Positions 16,557 through 17,830 of a stretch of 64,000 nt of DNA are shown piece by piece (positions within the stretch are counted from its first letter, which is position 1; every line of letters starts with the position of its first letter). Location: the NCBI GenBank assembly GCA_040902535.1, contig JBBDXD010000024.1, positions 1 to 64,000 on the forward strand, written 5' to 3'. Origin of the DNA: Dehalococcoidia bacterium. Its GTDB lineage: Bacteria > Chloroflexota > Dehalococcoidia > DSTF01 > JACRBR01. The translations under genes were made by a program, and so were the position numbers. The notes beneath the pieces were generated by a model that was not told where the DNA came from, ran no database searches, and saw only the letters and a program-made list of their open reading frames with translations.

Positions 16557-17420
16557 ATGGTTACGACCAGCCGTGGATCCACGCGTCGATCATACATGGC
16601 GTCGCAGCGATCGCGTCGCCGGGCGGGCAGCGATGGGCAGCGAATCGCATCGCGGAAACGCATTCCGGCGGGCACGCGGTTCGTCGCGGATCGCGGCACG
16701 GGGCTTGTCCACGACCTTTCGCGCGAGCGGCCGTACTGCGGACTCGAGCAGGCGTTTTCGAGCGGCACCGCGGAGACCTTCCTGCGGCCGTTGTCGAAGG
16801 CGAAGGCGTCGGGGCTGCGGATGGACGATGTGTGCATCGGCGCCCGTCCGAGCGACACCTTCGACGGAACGAAGACGGTGTTGCTCCAGATGTATACGCC
16901 GCCGCGCAAAGCGGACGTTGGGCTCGATCTCAACGAGCGGCTCGACTTTCACCTGCGGCTGGTGGTGGGGTTCGAACGCAACCGCGACCGTGCGCTGATG
17001 CACGAGCGACTGGCGCGGCTGAGGGTACCTTCCGTGTTCTACCAGGCGATGCGCATCCCCGAAGGACAGGAGGACGGCGCCGCGTGGGGTGAGCCGTCGA
17101 CGACGATCGCGTTGCAGCCGGACTTCGGTGCGCCGGCAGACGACGTGCGGGCGGACCTCTTCATCCCGCGCTCAATCGAGGATGACGAACGGAGCGTCGA
17201 CCGGTTCACCGGGCGGGTGATGGCCGCGCTGTTCGGGGTCAAGACGGTAAAGACGGCGTTCGCAAAGCACTTCGCGCGGCACGGCTACCGGGACCTGCAA
17301 GTGTACGGTCACCTGTGCGACACCGTGGATGACCGTATCCTGCCGCGGGCCCATGCGGACTGCAGCCAGGACACGGGCGGATCAGGCGGCGGTGGGGGAG
17401 GCGGTCAGAACTGCTACTGA
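16557..17420 (+). CDS. Hypothetical protein with Gly-rich, Cys-containing C-terminal tail
   Basis: A 287-residue protein of unknown family. The N-terminus is very basic (multiple RRR/RS), with no signal peptide. The middle looks like a folded mixed alpha/beta domain (LDLNERLDFHLRLVVGFE; VFYQAMRIPEGQEDGAAWGE; ADLFIPRSIEDDERSVDRF). The end is striking: DCSQDTGGSGGGGGGGQNCY, a glycine run between two cysteines with a terminal tyrosine. GGAGGG lies 6 nt before the ATG, so translation is well supported. It is convergent with a tiny cysteine-containing gene at 17554-17622, sharing the hairpin at 17479-17506. The tail recalls modified or anchored C-termini, but nothing here proves that. Confidence 0.7.
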   Translation: MVTTSRGSTRRSYMASQRSRRRAGSDGQRIASRKRIPAGTRFVADRGTGLVHDLSRERPYCGLEQAFSSGTAETFLRPLSKAKASGLRMDDVCIGARPSDTFDGTKTVLLQMYTPPRKADVGLDLNERLDFHLRLVVGFERNRDRALMHERLARLRVPSVFYQAMRIPEGQEDGAAWGEPSTTIALQPDFGAPADDVRADLFIPRSIEDDERSVDRFTGRVMAALFGVKTVKTAFAKHFARHGYRDLQVYGHLCDTVDDRILPRAHADCSQDTGGSGGGGGGGQNCY

Positions 17421-17478: not shown

Positions 17479-17506
17479 AGAGGCCCGGTCGTTCGACCGG
17501 GCCTCT
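17479..17506. terminator. Strong bidirectional hairpin
   Basis: AGAGGCCCGGTCG and CGACCGGGCCTCT form a 13-bp perfect inverted repeat separated by TT. It lies between the converging 287-aa gene (+) and 22-aa gene (-). The + strand tail is CTTCAGTCTGTTG; neither side has a long T-run, so termination may be imperfect. A second, smaller inverted repeat (CCTAGC/GCTAGG, about 17532-17558) lies between it and the tiny gene's stop. Confidence 0.8.
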
Positions 17507-17553
17507 CTTCAGTCTGTTGCCAGGCCTGGTGCCTAGCTTTCCGCCCCCGAAGG

Positions 17554-17622
17554 CTAGGAAACCGCCTCCGAGGTGCTGCGGACGCTGCTCGGCACGCAGG
17601 CCTTACAACTACTGTGATCCAT
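17554..17622 (-). CDS. Tiny gene, 22-aa peptide with CxxC
   Basis: The peptide reads MDHSSCKACVPSS followed by VRSTSEAVS. The ribosome site is AAAGGAGGTGAT, close to a perfect complement of the 16S rRNA 3' end, with GGAGG 8 nt before the ATG at 17622; an in-frame ATG at 17628 overlaps it. An extended -10 promoter lies about 25 bp upstream and a strong hairpin about 50 bp downstream. Everything needed for a separate transcript of roughly 170 nt is present. No gene follows on this strand, so it is not a leader peptide for a downstream gene. Function unknown: a small regulator, a modified peptide, or a dual-function RNA are all possible. The short length limits confidence. Confidence 0.55.
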   Translation of the reverse strand: MDHSSCKACVPSSVRSTSEAVS

Positions 17623-17647
17623 CCGCATCACCTCCTTTCCTGAGGGG

Positions 17648-17677
17648 AGGATAGCAGGGAGGGTGGGAGGAGATCAA
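17648..17677 (-). promoter_or_regulatory. Promoter of the 22-aa gene
   Basis: Read on the minus strand, TTGATC (17677-17672) is followed after 18 bp by TATCCT (17653-17648). TGC directly precedes the -10, giving an extended -10 (TGCTATCCT). Transcription would start near 17641, about 19 nt before the first start codon. Confidence 0.55.
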
Positions 17678-17697: not shown

Positions 17698-17830
17698 GGC
17701 GAGGTCGGATGTCGGAAGTCAGAGGTCGGACGGGGGGACAAACAGACGACAGACAACAGAGGTTTCGGAGCTTGCAGGCGTCACCAACCCACTGAGGACT
17801 ACTGACGACTGACGACTGACGACTGATGAC
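17698..17830. repeat. Three families of degenerate short tandem repeats
   Basis: In order: GGTCGGATGTCGGAAGTCAG (octamer-like GTCGGA units), then ACAGACGACAGACAACAGAGG, then four to five copies of ACTGACG (near 17798-17828). The same three families appear separately at other gaps. Confidence 0.85.

Follow-up and report, generated by a model that had tools for sequence, protein, structure and literature searches.

A compact transcription unit on the minus strand

The window, a stretch of 64,000 nt of Dehalococcoidia DNA, carries on its minus strand a small unit (17479-17677) with a promoter, a Shine-Dalgarno (SD) sequence, a 22-codon reading frame, a predicted RNA fold and a hairpin. On the same strand it is preceded by genes for a murE-like Mur ligase (21608-20073), a class-III aminotransferase (20031-18667) and a PAP2 protein (18670-17837). 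The genes after it are convergent, in the window as well as in the other genomes of its family, and no same-strand gene lies downstream. A short tandem repeat (GACTGACGACTGACGACTGATGACTG, 17795-17830) adjoins the unit, and the plus strand contains at 16557-17420 a 287-aa open reading frame with a glycine-rich tail (GGSGGGGGGGQNCY) and without Pfam match.

The putative promoter (17648-17677), recognized by its sequence, has the -35 element TTGATC (17677-17672), an 18-bp spacer and the extended -10 element TGCTATCCT (TG-C-TATCCT, 17656-17648). It is followed by the extended SD sequence GAAAGGAGGTGAT (17627-17639), whose 13 nt are complementary to the 3′ end of 16S rRNA and which occurs only once in the 3.18-Mb genome. 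The 16S 3′ end used for this comparison (CTGGATCACCTCCT) was read in genomes G003, G012 and G075, being absent from the window's own assembly. The reading frame MDHSSCKACVPSSVRSTSEAVS (17554-17622) starts with ATG at 17622-17620 and ends with TAG at 17554; the stop codon lies inside a local inverted repeat, CCTAGC...GCTAGG (17532-17558; arms 17532-17541 and 17549-17558, 90% complementary), that competes in some relatives with the rod described below, as judged from the sequence. The unit is closed by a perfect 13-bp hairpin resembling an intrinsic terminator (17479-17506; arms 17479-17491 and 17494-17506). All these parts had been described correctly in the original prediction; its weak point is the poor U-tract after the hairpin (CTTGCTATCC). 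Most relatives have a terminator at the equivalent place with better U-tracts of the CTTTTT type.

Two central repeats had been overlooked. One (17570-17582/17622-17634, 92% complementary) connects the ribosome binding site (RBS) with the interior of the reading frame, the other (17516-17528/17597-17609) connects the first half of the frame with sequence beyond the stop codon. The 171-nt RNA has a predicted folding energy of −98.3 kcal/mol compared to −66.4 ± 4.4 kcal/mol for shuffled sequences (z = −7.3), and none of the 200 shuffles was equally stable.

Conservation in the Dehalococcoidia

When 60 relatives were searched at the DNA level, the unit was found with 71-81% identity in each of the seven remaining family genomes, and its core in further genomes of the order and the class. 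Together with the unique SD string and the stable fold, this bears out the predicted unit as more than a chance arrangement of signals. Of 393 genomes of the class, 84 contained a match to a pattern consisting of SD, spacer and ATG, mostly a single one, and the reversed pattern, used as control, gave no match. After the loci had been read, roughly 70 of the 393 genomes, including Tepidiforma, were found to have the unit in about one copy each, and the remaining matches were ordinary genes or unrelated frames. The SD and the start codon served to pick these class-level members, so the conservation of these letters in part reflects that choice. It does not do so entirely, because one additional member, which starts with TTG (L133), was located by its position before birA and not by its SD. 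Many sampled members of the class lack the strict pattern, and a stricter pattern gave no match in the 263 genomes that were searched from other classes of the phylum.

The relatives have a −35 element similar to TTGA(C) and a −10 element of the type TA...T at an equal distance from the SD. TTG is present at −35 in 23/25, 14/14 and 15/16 sequences of groups A (the Tepidiforma group), B and C, and TANNNT at −10 in 17/25, 14/14 and 16/16. Conserved across families are the SD, the start codon, the short frame, the terminator and two helices, P0 and P1. The locus is therefore best described, on the basis of these comparisons, as a candidate small-RNA gene that is single-copy and conserved across many Dehalococcoidia families. 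In one genome two identical copies, each followed by birA, lie 1.3 Mb apart (L098 and L099, G162:C1), reflecting a duplication or an assembly artefact.

A mobile or multicopy repeat was dismissed, as the only other significant match in the own genome was the terminator hairpin against its own reverse complement. A phage origin was likewise set aside: the peptide gave no tblastn match in phage records, which is a weak test at 22 aa. At the gathering score, Rfam reported nothing in the window except one tRNA. Low-scoring matches to known RNA families other than CC2171 (see below) fell on the terminator hairpin or short stretches and were taken as chance.

Two helices connect the ribosome binding site, the frame and the 3′ arm

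In P0, the SD, spacer and AUG are paired with an anti-RBS inside the reading frame. The 5′ strand, SD plus spacer, is GAGGTGATGCGG (17623-17634) and the 3′ strand is CCGCAGCACCTC (17570-17581). RNAalifold, applied to each of three group alignments on its own, gave P0 as the consensus helix every time: 94.2, 99.6 and 98.3% of its cells are paired in register, compared to 17-65% when the strands are slid by one to three columns. Compensatory changes are present in alignments A2 and A3. In the Tepidiforma group GCGC/GCGC is replaced by GTGC/GCAC (L066 and L068), and in the third group an A-U pair became G-C in five sequences and a C-G pair became U-A in one. The alignment of the window's order (A1) has only one-sided G-C/G-U changes and no double change.

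P1 joins the first half of the frame, GTTGTAAGGCCTG (17597-17609), to CAGGCCTGGCAAC beyond the stop codon (17516-17528), which forms the base of the rod. The sequences of this helix differ widely between families, and the variable middle of the RNA does not align between members. P1 was missed by RNAalifold when MAFFT alignments were used, owing to the poor alignment of the 3′ arms; it was therefore assessed by partner swapping, in which the strands of one representative per family (n = 14) were exchanged. Own partners gave −24.8 kcal/mol and exchanged partners −17.9 kcal/mol (p < 5e-5). For P0, where the SD core was omitted from the test, the values were −13.6 and −11.6 kcal/mol (p = 7e-4). 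P1 is unconvincing in two of the 14 representatives (L122 and L207) and weak in a third (L061). Sequences within a family are related, so the statistics rest on swaps across families, which are not fully independent of each other either. Comparison of the duplex scores with shuffled sequences says less than the swaps do, owing to the shared composition. Both helices are in this way established at the level of sequence.

Folding of the growing transcript suggests an order of events. A 91-nt partial transcript of the window, ending at the stop codon of the frame, is predicted to fold into P0 (−33.6 kcal/mol) with the AUG 23% unpaired; as soon as the 3′ arm is included the rod wins and the AUG is predicted to be 71% unpaired. 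Reopening of the RBS is likewise predicted for L106, L113, L116, L089 and L161, and for L078 and L120 it is weak or not predicted at all. The model thus predicts an RBS that is closed as long as transcription has covered only the frame and that opens again in part once the RNA is complete.

Reading frame and genomic neighbourhood

Start codon and short frame are conserved in all relatives. The frame measures 15-25 codons in each of the 70 members, both alternative frames are interrupted by stops over the same stretch in 50/70 and 68/70 members, and insertions and deletions in group A comprise whole codons (18, 19 or 20 codons), which shows that the frame is kept. The stop codon is mostly TAG (52/70). 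These features, together with the strong SD, could be expected of a functional micropeptide, for instance a metal- or redox-active one with CxxC or many histidines, whose synthesis would be controlled by the RNA folds; Cys or His is frequent in the peptides, and CxxC is present in all distinct copies from the window's family. The peptides are however unlike between families, with a pN/pS of 0.55-0.85, and one member was cut to 15 codons by a one-base frameshift (L115). The CxxC motif is confined to the window's family, relatives outside it have one Cys or none, and the peptides of the Tepidiforma group are mostly without Cys. Conservation of the cysteines inside the family can be explained by the position of both codons in the 5′ strand of P1 (17609-17597). 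Of the expected conservation of frame and cysteines the first part was thus found and the second only within the family; the original prediction of a CxxC peptide gene is not supported, the peptide being unconserved between families, without the purifying selection and the kept cysteines that such a gene should display. A micropeptide function of any kind appears improbable to us, and the data favour a frame that is translated over one that makes a conserved peptide. The same conservation of SD and start codon would be unneeded in an sRNA whose 3′ arm base-pairs with mRNAs to act on them and in which the frame is a by-product or a second function. A stand-alone, single-copy unit with a terminator and a long conserved fold would suit such an sRNA, but the 3′ arm varies between families save for its pairing in P1, and we regard this explanation as very improbable.

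In other families the usual position of the RNA is between the murE-like Mur ligase gene and birA (assigned by Pfam), on the same strand, and birA starts about 65-240 nt past the stop codon of the frame. The statement that the unit is not a leader peptide in the usual sense therefore holds for the window, which has no same-strand gene after it, and not for most other families, where the unit is situated just upstream of birA. This arrangement could make the RNA a cis-acting attenuator, in which translation of the short frame sets the readthrough of the terminator and thus the level of biotin protein ligase, the window copy being a remnant. The downstream gene that a ribosome-dependent attenuator would regulate is indeed present in the other families, as birA, but missing in the window and its family (f1). 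Here birA has moved away from murE, and the RNA has stayed near murE with the aminotransferase and PAP2 genes in between; the birA of the window genome is found elsewhere (G000:C19:4014-4376, minus strand), without a copy of the RNA. The whole unit is kept without an adjacent birA in 8/8 genomes of the family. Two other groups have a −10-like site in the interval from terminator to birA, 10-14 nt ahead of the start of the gene, in 5/6 and 11/15 cases (0.9 and 4.1 expected from shuffling), which suggests that birA has its own leaderless promoter in these groups. In the folds the terminator stem keeps clear of the conserved helices, and no conserved antiterminator was seen in them. In the Tepidiforma group there is no excess of −10-like sites between terminator and birA (4 seen, 3.4 expected), so that attenuation of birA might apply to that group. 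As an explanation for the RNA as a whole, we consider attenuation unlikely.

A translation-gated RNA that may sense or titrate free ribosomes

The explanation that we prefer is a stand-alone, translation-gated RNA with two states, which probably senses or titrates free ribosomes; we give it a probability of roughly 0.55. The small-RNA gene would be about 165 nt long, and its promoter, which looks constitutive, would start transcription a few bases ahead of the perfect SD. While the frame is being transcribed, the anti-RBS within it would pair with the SD, spacer and start codon in P0 and hide them. Once the part behind the stop codon is made, the frame would join the long rod through P1, the anti-RBS would be captured and the SD freed, and the terminator would then end the RNA. 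A 30S subunit could bind the exposed 13-nt SD, and translation of the short frame would melt the rod; the length of the SD may supply the strength that competition with such a fold requires. The state of the RNA would in this way report, or the RNA would tie up, free 30S subunits. The gated two-state RNA taken alone, for which the conserved frame and both helices argue, is quite likely in our view. The ribosome-sensing role is inferred from this behaviour and remains tentative, with the odds rather against it.

Known systems share parts of this design. Access to the SD is governed by folding in type I toxin mRNAs, and holin-like type I toxins of Firmicutes have an identical string from SD to ATG, GRAAGGAGGTGATGYNNATGGA, before a frame of 23-27 codons. 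Their peptides are hydrophobic and mutually alike, in contrast to those of the unit, which are hydrophilic, rich in Asp, Ser, Arg and His, and mutually unlike. Four Firmicutes frames with exact GRAAGGAGGTGATGYNNATGGA that resemble such toxins were encountered in our data (L146, L160, L173 and L179). In the duf1127_1 uORF of Sinorhizobium meliloti the RBS pairs with its own first codons, and the leader was proposed to monitor ribosome availability (PMC12218461). That leader controls a downstream gene by termination, probably Rho-dependent (PMC12218461), whereas the unit is closed by an intrinsic terminator and has no downstream gene in the window. An attenuator RNA of S. meliloti, rnTrpL/peTrpL, likewise contains a short ORF, stops at a terminator and has an additional action in trans (PMC7298713, PMC10117765). 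It is a leaderless, tryptophan-sensing RNA, while the unit has no run of a single amino acid.

Similarity to the alphaproteobacterial CC2171 RNA

The layout of the window RNA is like that of CC2171 (Rfam RF01867), an alphaproteobacterial sRNA of unknown function: a perfect SD at the 5′ end, a helix that joins early and late parts, and a 3′ terminator. The window matches the model over its full length with 22.9 bits (E = 0.003-0.005), below the gathering score of 75 bits, and the sequence beyond the SD differs. We therefore suggest that the window RNA may work like CC2171, judged by layout, and do not claim membership in RF01867. The likeness could be due to common descent or to convergence, which the sequences do not distinguish.

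CC2171 was found at E ≤ 1e-6 in 16 of 142 alphaproteobacterial genomes, with five matches above the Rfam cut-off; 14 copies and one weaker match (L235) were read. The consensus contains a perfect SD (GAAAGGAGGTGATCC) at its 5′ end and an open frame. In the copies, GAAAGGAGG is followed 14 nt on by a GTG or ATG start codon and a frame of 18-35 codons (MSHCH...). An anti-RBS within the frame forms the counterpart of P0 with a covarying spacer (CCAGTG/CTGG, CCTGTG/CAGG and CCCGTG/CGGG; p = 0.007), and P1 connects the frame with the region after the stop codon (p < 5e-5). A terminator is located at the end, there is about one copy per genome where CC2171 is found, and no neighbouring gene is fixed. 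Rfam lists CC2171 as an sRNA, and we found no report of its reading frame in the literature. Among the alphaproteobacterial RF01867 matches (L235-L251), CC2171 appears to be a mini-mRNA with a self-masked RBS.

A class of RNAs present in at least two phyla (Dehalococcoidia and the alphaproteobacterial CC2171), with a throw-away short frame and a self-masked perfect RBS, that serves as a stand-alone sensor or sink of free 30S subunits, is a speculative and rather doubtful extension. The gated RNA itself, if borne out, would add an unlisted structured RNA to a class with few studied RNAs, would make it very likely that the frame of CC2171 is translated from a self-masked start, and would provide a compact test system for stand-alone RNAs that sense or hold free ribosomes, directly testable in cultured Tepidiforma and Caulobacter.

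Two further forms were noticed. A similar promoter, SD and 25-codon frame (MDDSRRSTLHCPTCRQYPRIEVMAG) are present beyond the Chloroflexota in Bacillota MAGs from Centralia (L159 and L163), representing either a further relative or a misassigned MAG. Four loci (L161, L162, L194 and L227) represent a compact variant in Chloroflexi (MDVSCKSRAASVRSR), a single long hairpin whose 5′ arm is formed by the frame, with the stop codon in the loop.
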